Positions 18,560-24,143 of a DNA stretch of 64,000 bases are shown here, piece after piece. The stretch is from Streptomyces sp. NBC_01244. GTDB lineage: Bacteria; Actinomycetota; Actinomycetes; Streptomycetales; Streptomycetaceae. Location of the stretch: assembly GCF_035987325.1 (NCBI RefSeq), contig NZ_CP108488.1, positions 7,688,001 through 7,752,000 of the forward strand, in the 5' to 3' direction. The notes beneath the pieces were generated by a model that was given only the letters and a program-made list of their open reading frames with translations, was not told the origin of the DNA and searched no databases. Numbering within the stretch: position 1 is the stretch's first letter; each line of letters begins with the position of its first letter. Made by a program: the position numbers and the translations under genes.

Positions 18560-19281
18560 GAGAGGTGTGGGGGCGCCGCTGCGGTCGCCGCGGTGCCGTG
18601 TCCACCCGAAGGCCGGTAGACGGCGAGTGCATGGAGGTCACTGTCTGTGATGCACCGGAGGGTCGGCGGTCTCTGCAGGGAGTGCTGCACAGGAAGCCGG
18701 GCGGGCTCGTTGCGGCAGGCATAAGGTGCCGACTGCCGTTCGATTCTCCCCAGATTCCCCCCAGAGCCTGTCGACGCCACAAAAGACCTGGTCAGGGGCC
18801 CGTGTGAGGCAAGGTGAGGAGATCACCCGCATCTATTCCCCCCAGAATCCCCCCACGGCTGCTTCTGGGTCGATCTGTGAGTGATGCGAAAGCGAAGTGC
18901 GAAGGATGACTGAGCGTCACGCGAAGGGCTTAGAGCCAGTCCCGTCGCTTGAAAATCACGTACAAGCTGGCGCAAATCACCCCCATAAGGCAGATCGCAA
19001 GGGGGTATCCGAAGGCCCAGTCCAACTCAGGCATGGACTCAAAGTTCATGCCGTAGATGGTTCCGACGAGTGTGGGTGCAAACAAAATGGCAGCCCATGA
19101 GGAAACCTTCTTGAAGTCGTCACCCTCACCCCGCTGACCTGCGGAAATCGCCTACGCATGCGGTCTGACCTGCAGCGATCGACCTTTCCGAAGCTTTCAC
19201 CCTGCTGCCTGCATATGCAGCCGATTCCCCCCAGCCGCCCCCCAGCGAGGCCTCATTCCCCCCAGATTCCCCCCAGCGGAG
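18560..19281. repeat. Repeat copy B: C-run clusters flanking a corA stub
   Basis: This is a longer version of copy A that also contains a left arm shared with copy C: a GC-rich inverted segment near 18569-18605, GCGAGTGCATGGAGGTCACT, and paired C-run units at 18743-18753 (ATTCTCCCCAG) and 18754-18764 (ATTCCCCCCAG). A second pair lies at 18835-18855. The corA stub follows at 18930-19123. The right cluster has ATTCCCCCCAG at 19224-19234, 19255-19265 and 19266-19276. The opposite strand is again a four-tract G-rich region. Copy B marks the junction between the biosynthetic cluster and the insertion sequences. Between 18356 and 18560 there is only the upstream region of the LnmK-like gene. Confidence 0.88.
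18930..19123 (-). pseudogene. corA: corA 3'-end stub (copy B)
   Basis: The leftward frame keeps GTIYGMNFE, MPEL and the terminal FKRRDWL and differs from copy A by a few residues (for example MPELDWAFGYP). The GTG that could start copy A is GAG here, so no start codon remains. The reading frame is still intact. Lack of stops despite lack of a start suggests fairly recent duplication or DNA-level conservation. Confidence 0.85.
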
Positions 19282-19406
19282 GCAGCTTGTGGCGGCGGAT
19301 TGCCGCTGGCTGGGACCGTGATCCCGGCGGTAGGGATGGCTACGCGACGCAAGAAGAGGGAACGGTACGACCTGGCGATCGCGGACGTCCCTGCGCGAGT
19401 CTAAGG

Positions 19407-20200
19407 GCTGTCCCATAATTGACCGTTGAGATGGCCGGGACAAGGTGGGCTGATCGCCGGTGGGTCGGGCTATGGGGCCTGGAGAAAGTTGTGGAGGCGG
19501 GCGATGCCGAGCATGGCGTGGTGGACGTCGTCGCCTTGAACCGGCCAGAGCGCAGCGTCCACTCCCTCCCCGTCCGTGACGATCCGTCAAGCCGGTGCGG
19601 CTCTTCTCTATAGCAACCCGCCGCAGGCCTTGACGGACGAGATCTGGCGTCGTGCCATGAGAGGACACACCGCGACGGGGGATGACACGATGGCGGCAGA
19701 GGGACACGACGGACCCAGTGGCGAGCCCGAGAGCCACAATGAGGTCCCACAGAGCAGCGCTCCAAAACTTTCAGTTGGCAAGGACTTCGCCCATGTAGCT
19801 TGGATCGTCCTGGCTCTCATCGTCCTCGGGATCATCTTGACCGTGGCAGCCGGCGATTGCTCTCCTAACTGCGCCAGCAACACGCCCTCGCGGCGCTGAT
19901 CACCGAGCTGCCCCGCGAACCTGGCCGCCGCCGCGCTGGTCGCCACCACCGATTCGCTGCTGCGGCGCCATCGCAGGGGCGTTGCGGTCGGCAGCCGACT
20001 TCGACACTCCGGACAGCAGCGCCAACTGCCGCAGCGGAGGTTGGCCCGCCAGTATGCGGCGACCAGCAGGACCCGGTCCTCCAGCGGCAGACCTCAGGGC
20101 CGACCCTTGCGGACCGAACCTGCACCTTCCCACCGCAGCGTGGTGGACAACTTGATGAACTGCCTCGGACACAACCCGGTGAACGGGGCTCCTGGTCGCG
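19407..20200 (-). mobile_element. Degenerate IS5-family element, leftward, interrupted
   Basis: The bases from 19407 (AAGGGCTGTCCCATAATTGA) are a terminal repeat matching, in inverse, the end at 22687-22706 (three differences in 20). Just inside, 19470-19540 encodes leftward the transposase end VHHAMLGIARLHNFLQA, stopping in the same place as the intact copy. From about 19900 to 20200 a second leftward segment carries the transposase N-terminus (PFTGL, LPLEDRVLLVAAYWRANL) with frameshifts and stops. The middle is replaced by the small gene 19690-19899. The element is dead and lies head to head with the second IS5-family copy; the 16-base arms at 20175-20190 and 20255-20270 are the same codons in opposite directions. 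Confidence 0.75.
19690..19899 (+). CDS. Small single-pass membrane protein, hypothetical
   Basis: A 69-residue frame from ATG 19690, with GGGGGA upstream. Its N-terminal 35 residues are polar and acidic, then one clear transmembrane helix (HVAWIVLALIVLGIILTVA) and a short tail with two cysteines. ATG 19657 would give a longer version. It sits inside the remains of an IS5-family element, so it may be a passenger or a relic joined by recombination. I do not recognise it. Confidence 0.5.
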   Translation: MAAEGHDGPSGEPESHNEVPQSSAPKLSVGKDFAHVAWIVLALIVLGIILTVAAGDCSPNCASNTPSRR

Positions 20201-20621
20201 GGTGGGAGCTCTTGCTGTGGCTGGTGTGATCACGGCGTCAGAGCCGTCCTGGATAGCCCCGTTCACCGGGCTGAGCCCGCGTGACTTCCGCAAGCTGATG
20301 ACGTTGCTGCGCCGGGAGGGTGCTGACGCGGTGCGCCCGGGCCGGCCCTGGAGCCTCCCGCTGGAGGACCGAGTGCTGCTCGTCGCCGCCTACTGGCGCA
20401 CGAACCTGACCCTGCGCCAGATCGCCCCCTTGTTCGGGGTATCCAAATCGGCGGCCGACCGCATCATCGACCACATCGGCCCGCTGCTCGCGCTCAAGCC
20501 CCGGCGACGCTTCGCCAAGGGCACCATTCTGATCGTCGACGGCACCCTCGTCCCCACCCGCGACCACGCCATCGCGGAGAAGTCCAAGACATCTCATGTC
20601 GTCGGTAGGTCAAGTAGGTGC

Positions 20622-21860
20622 TCAGGCGGCGAGCTCCAGGGGTGCCGCGAAAGCACGATCGGGGTCGAATAGCGTGCGGCGTTGCAGGCAGTGATAGAGG
20701 CAGCCGAGCAGTTTGTTGAACAAGTTCCTGAGAGCTGCAGTATGGCGCTCTCCACCAGCGCGCCGCCGGTCGTAGTGGGCGCGTGGAGCCTGCGTGCGAA
20801 GGGCTGCGAAGGCCCACATGTGCCCGGCTGAGGCCAGGCGCTGGTTCTTGACGGTCCGTGCGACCACTACGTGGCTTCGCCCGGAGGCCCGGGTGATAGG
20901 GGCCGCTCCCGCGTACGCCTTCATGGCGCGGGCATCCGCAAAGCGTTCGCGGTCATCTCCGAGCTCGGCGAGAACTCGCGCTCCGGAAAGCACAGACAGC
21001 CCAGGGAAGCTGGTGATGATCTCGGCATCTGGGTGCGCGAGGAATGCCTCCTCCGTCGCCGCCGCGAGCTGAGCGACGCTGTTGCATGAGGCATCGAGCT
21101 GGCGGATGAGCGCTACTGCCTGGTGCCCCAGGGCCTGCTCGACCTGCGGCAGCTGCCTCAGGTAGTCCGCGCGGAAGATTGCCCGAAGCCGCTCGACCTC
21201 AGCCTCGATTCCGCAGCGCGGACGCTCGCCCCGCTTGAGCAACGCACGCAGCTGGCTGCGGGAGAGTACGGCAGCGTCGGCCGGCGTCGGTGCAGCGGTG
21301 AGAATCACGCGGGCACGTGGCGAGTCGAGTCCCGGTTTGCCGGGGCCATGGAAGGCTATGAGAGCGGCTGGATAGTACTCGCGCAGGTGCGACCGGAGCC
21401 GGTTCATCATCTGCTGCCGGTCCCAGATGGCGTCCTGGTGAGCGCGGGCCAGGACAGCGACGGCCTGCCCGGCCTCGCTGTCGTCGGGTAGGGGGCGGTG
21501 GGCGTGCCGGTCGGTTCGAAGGACATTTGCTAGAACACGGGCGTCCGCTGCATCGGACTTGGCTCGGGAGACGCTGGCGCGATCGCGGTAGCGGGCCGCG
21601 GCCAGGGGGTTGATTGCGTAGACCTGTCGGCCCGTTGCCCGCAGGCCGGCGACTAGGAGGCCGCGTGGCGTCTCGATCGCAACGGGGATCGGATGCTCTG
21701 CGGAGTCGCCATGCCTGGTCAAGAGTTCGATCAGTGCGTGGAAGCCGGCACTGTCGTCGCTGATCCGTAGCTTGGCGACCTGGGATCCGTCCTGGTCGAC
21801 CAGGGCTATGTCGTGGTGTCCCTCCGCCCAGTCAATTCCACAGAAGATCTCGCTCAACAC
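20622..21860 (-). CDS. IS110-family transposase (DEDD recombinase)
   Basis: The protein is full length (412 aa). The RuvC-like DEDD residues are D10 (FCGIDWAEGHHD), E63 (VAIETPRG), D103 and D106 (KSDAADARVLA). The C-terminal Tnp domain has SFPGLSVLSGARVLAELGDD (about 284-303), which carries the conserved serine region, and then YAGAAPITRASGRS. Length and order match active members of the family. This recombinase works with a bridge RNA that pairs with target and donor DNA. No frameshift or stop is present. The start ATG 21860 is the only one before the conserved N-terminus. Confidence 0.95.
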   Translation of the reverse strand: MLSEIFCGIDWAEGHHDIALVDQDGSQVAKLRISDDSAGFHALIELLTRHGDSAEHPIPVAIETPRGLLVAGLRATGRQVYAINPLAAARYRDRASVSRAKSDAADARVLANVLRTDRHAHRPLPDDSEAGQAVAVLARAHQDAIWDRQQMMNRLRSHLREYYPAALIAFHGPGKPGLDSPRARVILTAAPTPADAAVLSRSQLRALLKRGERPRCGIEAEVERLRAIFRADYLRQLPQVEQALGHQAVALIRQLDASCNSVAQLAAATEEAFLAHPDAEIITSFPGLSVLSGARVLAELGDDRERFADARAMKAYAGAAPITRASGRSHVVVARTVKNQRLASAGHMWAFAALRTQAPRAHYDRRRAGGERHTAALRNLFNKLLGCLYHCLQRRTLFDPDRAFAAPLELAA

Positions 21861-21889
21861 TGTGCCTCCGTCTCAACCTGCAGGTCGAT

Positions 21890-22145
21890 CCCATGCGGAG
21901 CACGCGGCGCTCTAATAGAAGTGCTCTGGGCACGCCATCTCATGAGCCGTTCGTGTCTCCAGCGACCGGCAGGGACCTCGGTCTGTTGGAGAGCTCATCG
22001 GCTCGCGAACTGTTGAGAGGTCGGCCCCTGCCGGCGGGCTGAGAACATGAAAGCTGGTGATATTCGAGCCTCTGCCGGGCGGGACCGGTCTTTGACGAGA
22101 GGTCAAGGCCACGGAACTACCGAAGGTCTCCGCCCGGCAGGGCGC
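21890..22145 (-). ncRNA. Bridge RNA of the IS110 element
   Basis: Read leftward, the transcript has two internal loops. The first loop is closed by a perfect 11-bp stem (22130-22140 with 22072-22082). It contains CGGTAGTTC (22122-22114), identical to the target half beside the right junction, and GTCAAAG (22096-22090), which differs by one base from the left flank GTCCAAG (20582-20588). The second loop is closed by an imperfect stem (21947-21960 with 21897-21907). It contains CATGAGATG (21944-21936), identical to the element end at 20598-20590, and CTATTAG (21918-21912), identical to the other element end 22235-22241. Target loop first and donor loop second is the order known for IS621. The exact RNA ends are uncertain, and a third stem lies between the loops (about 21965-22035). 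Confidence 0.88.
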
Positions 22146-22686
22146 GGGCGAGGCAGGGCCGGCCTGACCGGAGGGATCCGGGCCTCGACCTCGCCTGGTG
22201 GCCCTTGCACTCACGCGCCTGGGTCACCGATGACCTATTAGAACTACCGGTACTCCACCAATCATCAGGTCGTCATCGACGCCCACACCTGCCTGGTCGT
22301 GACGGTCGGCAAGCCCCTCCCCGGGAACCGCAACGACTGCAAGGCCTGGGCTGAGTCCGGCGCCAAGGCCGCCGTCGGCAGGACTACCACCATCGCCGAC
22401 GGCGGCTATCCGGGCACCGGCCTCGTCATCCCGCACCGCCGCCCCCAAGGCGGCAAACTCAGCGACTGGCAGGCCGAACACAACCATGACCACAAGCTGG
22501 TCCGCGCCCGCGTCGAGCACGTCTTCGCCCGCATGAAGAACTGGAAGATCCTGCGCGACTGCCGCCTCAAAGGCGATGGCGTCCACCACGCCATGCTCGG
22601 CATCGCCCACCTCCACAACCTCGTCCAGGCCGCGTAGCAGCACCCGCCAACGGCCAGCCGGCCCTGTCCCGATCCACCCAAAGATC

Positions 22687-22706
22687 AATTACGGGACAAC
22701 CCTTAG
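22687..22706. repeat. Right terminal inverted repeat of the IS5-family element
   Basis: TCAATTACGGGACAACCCTT is the inverse of the sequence at 19407-19426, apart from three bases. The pair brackets the whole nest of insertion sequences. Confidence 0.8.
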
Positions 22707-22731
22707 GTGGAATGAGGAGGCAGTGGTCTCT

Positions 22732-23133
22732 GTGGCCGACGAGTCTGAGCGACCCGTTGCCGCCGCTGTTGTGGTGCACAAGGGGCGGCTGCTGTTGGTG
22801 CGGCGTCGCATCGCGGAGGGGCAACTGTCCTGGCAGTTCCCCGCTGGCAAGGTGGAGCCGGAGGAGTCACGCGAGGCTGCTGCTGTCCGGGAGGCGCAGG
22901 AAGAGACCGGTCTGCAGGTGATTGCGCGTGAGTTGCTCGGCGAGCGGGTCCACCCCGCCACCGGCCGGCTGGTGTCCTACACGGCCTGCGATGTACTCAG
23001 TGGTACGGCGCACGTCGCGGCAGAGCGGGAAGTCGCCGAGATCGCGTGGGTTACACGCGGCCAGATTTCGGCGTATGTGCCGCACGGACTCTTCGGACCG
23101 GTGGAGGCGTACTTGGACGGTGTACTCGGCTGA
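22732..23133 (+). CDS. Nudix hydrolase
   Basis: A 133-residue enzyme that hydrolyses a nucleoside diphosphate linked to another group. The Nudix box is GKVEPEESREAAAVREAQEETG at about residues 42-63; all catalytic Glu residues (REAQEE) are present. GTG 22732 is chosen because GAGGAGG lies 11 bases upstream; a GTG at 22723 is too close to it. It begins 26 bases after the terminal repeat of the insertion sequence, so its original promoter may have been replaced. Substrate cannot be told from sequence; it resembles MutT-like housecleaning enzymes of Streptomyces. Confidence 0.92.
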   Translation: MADESERPVAAAVVVHKGRLLLVRRRIAEGQLSWQFPAGKVEPEESREAAAVREAQEETGLQVIARELLGERVHPATGRLVSYTACDVLSGTAHVAAEREVAEIAWVTRGQISAYVPHGLFGPVEAYLDGVLG

Positions 23134-23265
23134 TCGGCCCATCTGCGAGCCGCAGATGGGCCGGGAGCCGACGGTCCGGGACCTGGCCCACGAGATGGCT
23201 GTCTGAGGCCGTTGTCGTATCGAGCCAGAGCTCGACCGCTTGAGCCGCCGACCGGGCGTACCTGT

Positions 23266-23569
23266 GTGACTGAGCCGCAACGCAAGCCTGTCCTGTACGT
23301 CGTCGTCTGCGCTGCGGGGATCGCCGGCGATGTCGGCAAACTCATCACTGCCGCACAAGAGCGGGGCTGGGAAGTCGGGGTCATCGCCACCCCGCAGGCC
23401 ATCGACTTCCTCGACTGCCAGGCGATCGAGGAACAGATTGGTTATCCGATCCGTCTGGCGCTCACCCGGCGACGCGCGGTCGTACGCGAGGGCCGACGCC
23501 ATCGCCGTCGCGCCAGCCAGCTTCGAAGGCTTCCTGGGTGGAGTCGAAGCGGCTGCCCCAGGGCTCTGA
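23266..23569 (+). pseudogene. Flavoprotein (PPC decarboxylase-like) remnant, frameshifted
   Basis: From GTG 23266 the frame reads KPVLYVVVCAAGIAGDVGKL and continues to IGYPIR, the start of a flavin-dependent decarboxylase-fold protein. At about 23452 the similarity moves to another frame (SVWRSPGDARSYARADAIAVAPASF), showing a one-base shift. It stops at 23569 after unrelated residues. An intact member would be about 180 aa or more. A second, more decayed piece of the same gene is at 62866-63070. It may once have served a regulator or transport locus of the type common in Streptomyces; function is lost. Confidence 0.8.
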
Positions 23570-23597
23570 TGCGTGCGGGGACTCCCGCGGTGGCGAG

Positions 23598-24143
23598 TCA
23601 GGCTGGAGCCTGCGGCTTTCGTCTGGCCGAGCGCGCCCTGTTCCCGCAGCCGAGCGAACACCATGCCTGGTCGCGGCGCCGGGCGAGGAAGAACATGCCG
23701 CAGCTGGGCGCGTGGCAGCGCCGCAGTCTTTCCTGTTCCGGCCCGGCTGCGAGGAGGAGTGCCTGCCGGGCGGCGGCCGCCTGGGCGGGGCCGCCTGTCT
23801 CGCGCTGATCGAGCCGCCCGTCGGCGGTGACGAGGAAGGTCACGGGGGCGGCGGAGGCGAGTGCGTTCAGTTCGGTCCGCACGCTCTCCGGCAGGGCGCG
23901 TTGCCCGGCAGAGGCGTCCAGCGCGGCTCTTATCAGGTCACGCAGCACCGTGAGGTCTTCCAGAGGCAGGAGAGCCAGTCGGCGTTCCGTCGCCCGGGCC
24001 CGCCAGCTCGCGGTGAGGTCGGCGTCCGCGAAGAGGTCGATGTCGGCGTGCGTGGGCCCTGCGCCGCAGATGACCGTGTTGGCGAGGTCCAGGACCGGGT
24101 CCTCGCCGATCCACGGCATCTCGCGAAGGTTCCGGATCGTCAT
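23598..24143 (-). CDS. CGNR zinc-finger (ABATE-domain) transcription regulator
   Basis: The 181-residue protein has the N-terminal ABATE region (LDLANTV near residue 18). The C-terminal zinc finger is CHAPSC...WCSLGCGNRARSARR, in which the CGNR motif is exact and the Cys residues would bind zinc. Such proteins are stress-linked regulators that bind DNA by the basic C-terminus. It is divergent from the ABM-like gene at 24249, and a perfect inverted repeat lies between them (24198-24229), so it probably controls that gene and itself. Confidence 0.9.
   Translation of the reverse strand: MTIRNLREMPWIGEDPVLDLANTVICGAGPTHADIDLFADADLTASWRARATERRLALLPLEDLTVLRDLIRAALDASAGQRALPESVRTELNALASAAPVTFLVTADGRLDQRETGGPAQAAAARQALLLAAGPEQERLRRCHAPSCGMFFLARRRDQAWCSLGCGNRARSARRKPQAPA

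Follow-up and report, generated by a model that had tools for sequence, protein, structure and literature searches.

What brings one insertion sequence (IS) to rest inside the transposase gene of another? The question is raised by a 64,000-nucleotide stretch of the Streptomyces sp. NBC_01244 genome (contig NZ_CP108488.1, positions 7,688,001 to 7,752,000; hereafter the window, to which coordinates refer unless another contig is named), wherein an IS110-family element occupies positions 20587 to 22242 on the minus strand. An earlier, sequence-only reading had placed an IS110 element at these positions, and the ends, the guides, the CT core, and the protein family bear this out. What that reading left out is that the element sits within a transposase gene of the IS5 type, and that this gene is its target. 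We conclude that the left end of the element very probably encodes a two-loop bridge RNA that directs a DEDD/Ser recombinase to one site in IS5-type transposase genes. The sequence evidence for this conclusion comprises the element ends, the guides, the conserved structure, the catalytic residues, the recurrence of the same insertion codon, and guides that change together with their targets.

Read on the minus strand from position 22242, the element consists of the left end TCTAATAGG, a target loop, a donor loop, the recombinase gene, and the right end CATGAGATGTCT at position 20587; element coordinates (p) equal 22243 minus the window position. Approximately 380 noncoding bases precede the recombinase gene and only 35 follow it. 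The CT core noted earlier is present at both ends (22240 to 22241 at the left end and 20587 to 20588 at the right end, minus strand, as read from the sequence). One T is common to flank and element at both junctions, and the exact boundary is therefore either TCT or CT. The interrupted IS5-type gene lies on the plus strand, with its 5′ part at 20202 to 20586, through the S-K codons, and its 3′ part at 22240 to 22637, starting with the N-Y-R codons. Read across the empty site, the host gene is an open frame (...VPTRDHAIAEKSK/NYRYSTNHQVVIDA..., where the slash, here and below, marks the junction), and thus the window target CGGTAGTT-CT-TGGAC is the antisense of the S-K-N-Y-R codons. Separately, we observed an inverted repeat of 158 bases (79% identical, 19401 to 19555 and 22551 to 22706), with one arm inside the 3′ portion of the interrupted gene; it is perhaps the remnant of another IS5 copy.

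All four of the guide segments previously claimed upstream of the recombinase gene are present on the minus strand. The predicted target-binding loop extends from 22072 to 22140 (first to last predicted pair) and carries the left target guide CGGTAGTTC (22114 to 22122, p 121-129), which equals the target half at 9 of 9 bases, and the right target guide GTCAAAG (22090 to 22096, p 147-153), which agrees with the target GTCCAAG at 6 of 7. The paired part of the donor-binding region, defined by a consensus fold, covers 21921 to 22035. Its left donor guide, CATGAGATG (21936 to 21944, p 299-307), equals the right end of the element, and its right donor guide, CTATTAG (21912 to 21918, p 325-331), is the reverse complement of the left end CTAATAG. 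These matches to the target and to the two element ends agree with the sequence-only reading, as does the 11-bp stem around the target guides, which is present as the outer stem and is kept in relatives.

Folding of the bridge-RNA region as a single sequence gave −120.5 kcal/mol (z −4.0), and 0 of 200 shuffled sequences did as well. By using RNAalifold with 18 sequences, we obtained 22 predicted pairs in the target loop, 5 of which show two-sided changes in one or more sequences; the donor part, with 22 sequences, yielded 18 predicted pairs, 9 of them with both-sided changes. Both loops are thus kept in relatives, with compensatory changes, which was a check proposed at the outset. No Rfam family scored above its gathering score in a scan of positions 19000 to 24000. 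In some relatives, the bridge-RNA region is itself interrupted, by an 883-base insert at the right target guide (loci L052 and L097) or by an 887-base insert at the right donor guide (L021). The reading frames of these inserts are presumably those of IS5-type transposases, and such an insert inside an IS110 bridge-RNA region is the reverse of the nesting in the window.

The recombinase gene (20622 to 21860, minus strand) encodes 412 amino acids from a GTG start, as assigned by family scans and alignment with IS621. The protein scores 189.1 bits against NCBIfam NF033542, the IS110 family RNA-guided transposase (cut-off 140), and also exceeds the curated cut-offs for DEDD_Tnp_IS110 (128.4 bits, cut-off 29) and Transposase_20 (50.4 bits, cut-off 21.3). 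Similarity to IS621 is weak (best PDB matches E 7e-12 and 7e-11). In an alignment to PDB 8wt6, residues D10, E63, D103, D106, and S326 correspond to IS621 D11, E60, D102, D105, and S241, which are named as catalytic in the available text of PMC11208158. The protein retains all of its D, E, D, D, and Ser positions, in agreement with the earlier claim of an intact DEDD protein, and it is a candidate for an active, programmable recombinase. Two other assignments were rejected. The score against the TIGR-Tas endonuclease family (NF052498) is 27.9 bits, far under the cut-off of 100, and the IS1111 group is marked by a noncoding region downstream of the gene, where here the region lies upstream. The same genome also encodes two distant IS110 relatives, at 30% identity (L005, G000:C1:110128-111285) and 28% identity (L006, C1:7035565-7036083); the latter has an internal stop.

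In the cycle that we propose, the excised circle would join the right end to the left end at an RE-LE (right end-left end) joint reading GATGTCTAATAG, which would build the promoter TTGACC-18-TCTAAT, and the bridge RNA would be transcribed. Its target guides would pair with CGGTAGTT-CT-TNGAC, which is antisense to the codons for Ser-Lys-Asn-Tyr-Arg, and the recombinase would insert the circle antisense to the host transposase gene, breaking that gene. We found the promoter-like arrangement by eye at the joint and then compared it across right ends. The candidate −35 box TTGACC (20608 to 20613, minus strand) lies 18 bases before TCTAAT at the circle joint, and in every right end compared, duplicates included, 17 or 18 bases separate it from the joint T/CTAAT; hence the predicted circle would carry TTGACC-18-TCTAAT. 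One left end (L017) reads T/CTCAT instead of T/CTAAT, and a search of the RE-LE joint in which the −10 box was required to start with TA listed no promoter. In IS621, shortening of the RE-LE removed the −35 box, according to the accessible text of PMC11208160.

The genome (10.0 Mb, 3 contigs) holds two copies of the element that are 100% identical over 1656 bases, and each interrupts an IS5-type transposase gene between the same codons (S-K/N-Y-R). These two hosts are only 82.7% identical over 867 bases. Identical copies in hosts this divergent suggest that the element moved recently, with gene conversion between the copies as the alternative.

We then considered relatives, which were drawn from species genomes (80 of 103 kept), from a DNA search of the genus (matches in 136 of 392 genomes, with 30 loci laid out), and from family and order searches at E 1e-100 (41 of 394 and 36 of 391 genomes matched, in overlapping sets). 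A plasmid search returned 137 records, two of which were examined. A cluster of ten loci from Nocardia and Mycobacterium, whose ends are ambiguous, was left out of the results.

With twice-fetched loci removed, 22 loci carry the guide CGGTAGTT (guide A) and a left flank, and 20 of them lie in an IS5-type gene at SK/NYR, as judged by tblastn with one or both flanks. The count becomes 21 of 23 with L158, which is also at SK/NYR by its flanks, and 19 of 21 if L011, L012, and L023, which come from one species and share the same 24-base flanks, are taken as one. Left matches start at residue 197 and right matches end at residue 195, with the exception of L002, whose right match ends 30 bases off. 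Loci with a right end only were found at the same codons in 6 of 6 cases, although two of them (L049 and L075) may be the other ends of L055 and L024. Where both sides were in view (18 guide-A loci), the left guide matches its target at 9 of 9 bases in 16 loci and at 8 of 9 in the other 2. One guide can serve divergent IS5 copies because the target motif is conserved protein code. As a separate observation, L158 has two left-end starts 64 bases apart (L158:1436-1510), as if a truncated left end precedes a full one.

The concentration of all right-end-only copies and most guide-A copies in one host family, always with the same relative orientation of host and element, could also arise if the copies were spread by their IS5 hosts or by chromosomal rearrangement rather than by the element. 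We consider this very unlikely, since the two copies in this genome are identical to each other in hosts that are not (gene conversion being again the alternative), the host transposase is interrupted, and related copies occur in other transposase families. Note that trees were built for the elements only.

The correspondence between guide and target was also assessed across the wider set. One clear left end, picked by the donor guide only, was obtained for 65 of 91 de-duplicated loci (24 gave none and 2 were ambiguous). With the flank excluded from the guide region, 34 of the 65 loci have a left target that agrees with the guide region of its own element in at least 8 of 9 bases, versus 3.75% of 3656 swapped pairs, a comparison that is uncorrected for kinship. 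Counted once per distinct target, the figure is 13 of 37.

Changes of guide provide a further line of evidence. The left guide AGGTGGAT (guide B) occurs in L022 (the same as L181), L099, L162, and L182, and L100 carries AGGACCAT. L022, L099, and L182 are inserted in a second IS5 subgroup at RSRGG[LF]T[ST]K/IHL, with left matches of 8, 7, and 8 of 8 bases; the hosts of the first two are IS5 by NCBIfam, and that of L182 was recognized by tblastn and motif. In our reading, which does not come from an alignment, SK/NYR and TK/IHL occupy equivalent positions in the IS5 fold. L100 is inserted in an IS256-type transposase gene at VDE/MVL, where the changed target matches its changed guide. In a tree of 26 elements, there are at least two changes of guide B, with L022 near the guide-A rows and the other three apart. 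The guides of some relatives are directed at other transposase motifs (IS5 T-K/I-H-L and IS256). In this account, the element is a kind of parasite that is guided by RNA into other insertion sequences. Two of these elements, L100 and L162, are approximately 2.5 kb long rather than 1.7 kb, with the additional sequence lying downstream of the recombinase gene, ahead of the right end. For two loci with other guides (L020 and L101), a search for the right end by the donor guide gave none.

Guide and target change together in L022, L099, and L100, while the donor loop is nearly constant and the proteins remain 77-86% identical. This bears on whether the target might be chosen by protein-DNA contact alone, with the matching guides a by-product of the element ends, an account that gains from the bridge RNA being known here from sequence only. 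We regard it as extremely improbable given these joint changes and the RNA guidance established experimentally for IS621 in the accessible portions of PMC11208160 and PMC11208158.

Several observations weigh against RNA-directed insertion at one IS5 site as we have described it. A sigma-70 scan of the linear DNA from 20500 to 22400 found no promoter. Two loci, L018 (Embleya) and L019 (S. caniscabiei), carry guide A at poorly matching sites outside IS5 genes, and in L162, for which a host gene could not be recognised, the left match is only 6 of 8 bases. In 31 of the 65 loci compared above, the match falls below 8 of 9, mostly in distant relatives whose ends may be wrong. Finally, the right guide mismatches its target at the fourth base in 17 of the 18 guide-A loci with both sides in view, and L043 has one further right-guide mismatch. 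In the Ser codon TCN, that fourth base occupies the silent third position; the guides have A or T there, and in 17 of 18 loci the target has C or G. That the target motif is conserved protein code would explain why the mismatch recurs at a silent position. The poorly matching sites of L018 and L019/L093 read CCACCCTT-CT-GAGACC and CCCCACTT-CT-GACCGC and may reflect off-target insertion or later rearrangement; the genome of L093 holds an empty IS5-type target (L136). Apart from L018, L019, and L162, the other copies lie at guide-matching sites, which is the outcome that the sequence-only reading had anticipated.

Two more distant clades are found in transposase genes of another family. Seven loci at 48-52% protein identity (L050, L053, L054, L056, L057, L058, and L084) are in IS3 OrfB genes at WV[ATM]D/[IF]T, or at TSD/I in L050. 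Family scans covered six of the seven and named IS3 in 6 of 6, and five hosts cut at the junction end at profile position 223 of 369. Among the left guides of this clade, two are full matches (9 of 9 bases), two have one mismatch (8 of 9), and those of the three Mobilicoccus copies match at 6 of 9. Four other loci (L070, L079, L085, and L086, the last two alike) are in IS3 OrfA genes at ERD[VL]/LKR or QRDV/LKR, and the three hosts scanned are all HTH_Tnp_1. Their right guides match at 7 or 8 of 8 bases and their left guides at 7 or 8 of 9, the lower of these two left values being weak, since 7 of 9 is also found in 25.8% of swapped pairs.

From these data, we lean slightly toward a broader proposal, that several IS110 lineages are RNA-guided parasites in which selection keeps the guides on codons of conserved transposase motifs (IS5 SK/NYR and TK/IHL, IS256 VDEMVL, IS3 OrfB WVxD/[IF]T, and IS3 OrfA ERD[VL]/LKR) and guide mutations shift the host family. 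We go no further than this, given the weaker left guides of the OrfA clade and right guides of the OrfB clade. Transposase targeting is repeated and not a rule, and no transposase target was shown for the supported guide clusters CGACACCTC (7 loci), CGTTTCCCC, CCCGTTACC, and GCTCCGATC. As an additional observation, seven related loci (L030, L038, L069, L076, L081, L082, and L087) share the target CGACACCT-CT, with guides matching at 8 or 9 of 9 bases, and the six flanks compared (all but that of L082) share a GGCAAGCC stretch approximately 20 bases upstream.

Empty target sites bear on whether such a niche is selected. The exact sequence CGGTAGTTCTTNGAC occurs at least once in 176 of 392 genus genomes; the genome of the window has no exact site and seven one-mismatch sites, versus fourteen for the reversed control. 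Among 30 empty sites examined, 21 are IS5-type, 8 lie in an aminotransferase gene encoding SKNYRVAG (L129, L131, L133, L138, L139, L146, L150, and L153, the aminotransferase name coming from a family scan of L129), and 1 is other. In 15 chosen carrier genomes, we found 7 exact empty sites, 6 clearly IS5-type and 1 damaged (L194). Many IS5 targets are therefore unused, in carriers as well.

No insertion at the aminotransferase SKNYRVAG site was seen among the loci examined, even though the exact target is there in 8 of the 30 empty sites. This is what would be expected from survivorship, whereby RNA guides insertion but the guides are not selected for transposases, insertions in needed genes are lost, and those in dispensable transposase genes remain. 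None of the 7 exact empty sites of the carriers is in the aminotransferase gene, which also fits, and carriers may simply lack the harmful target. We nevertheless think survivorship unlikely to be the whole explanation, though far from negligible, in that the guides of three clades fit five transposase motifs, and a filter alone would not aim guides. It is compatible with RNA guidance and lowers only the claim of a selected niche.

The recombinase type itself is already known. According to the accessible portions of PMC11208160 and PMC11208158, IS621 likewise has the DEDD and Ser residues, an upstream noncoding RNA with the target loop before the donor loop, left and right guides on opposite strands, a CT core, and a promoter at the RE-LE joint, which here is a candidate. 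The element in the window differs in its 412-amino-acid, weakly similar recombinase and in its donor and target guides, and it is tied to transposase codons, whereas IS621 is tied to REP (repetitive extragenic palindromic) elements. IS110-type seekRNA elements such as ISEc21 resemble it in that a change of guide between related elements goes with a change of target, as shown for ISEc11 and ISXne4, but targets within transposase coding motifs are not described in the available text (PMC11187229). Other IS110/IS1111 elements, namely IS4321/IS5075 (Tn21-family ends) and IS1383 (IS1384 ends), also target mobile elements in the accounts accessible to us; their target is a terminal inverted repeat, whereas here it is a conserved transposase coding motif. 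The group II intron RmInt1 homes under RNA guidance. It is housed in another insertion sequence, ISRm2011-2, whose spread it is thought to affect (PMC4238363, in the part available), but splicing removes the intron from the host transcript, whereas the IS110 element interrupts the host transposase. The open-access literature that was searched, including PMC11208160, PMC11208158, PMC11187229, and PMC12500396, yielded no account of IS110 guides that target transposase coding motifs, although the supplementary target lists of the 2024 papers may hold such sites. Within that literature, we saw no precedent for an element that homes to the conserved codons of rival transposases and is naturally retargeted.

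These findings suggest an ecological role for bridge RNAs, namely to bring an element home into the coding regions of rival transposase genes. Natural guide-target pairs with silent-base mismatches bear on the mismatch tolerance of an actinobacterial bridge recombinase, and the natural switches between target motifs would represent bridge-RNA reprogramming in evolution, which is directly testable. If several lineages do live in this manner, one guide would fit many divergent elements, and competitors would provide a renewable safe harbour while being silenced, which would amount to an RNA-guided check between transposons.
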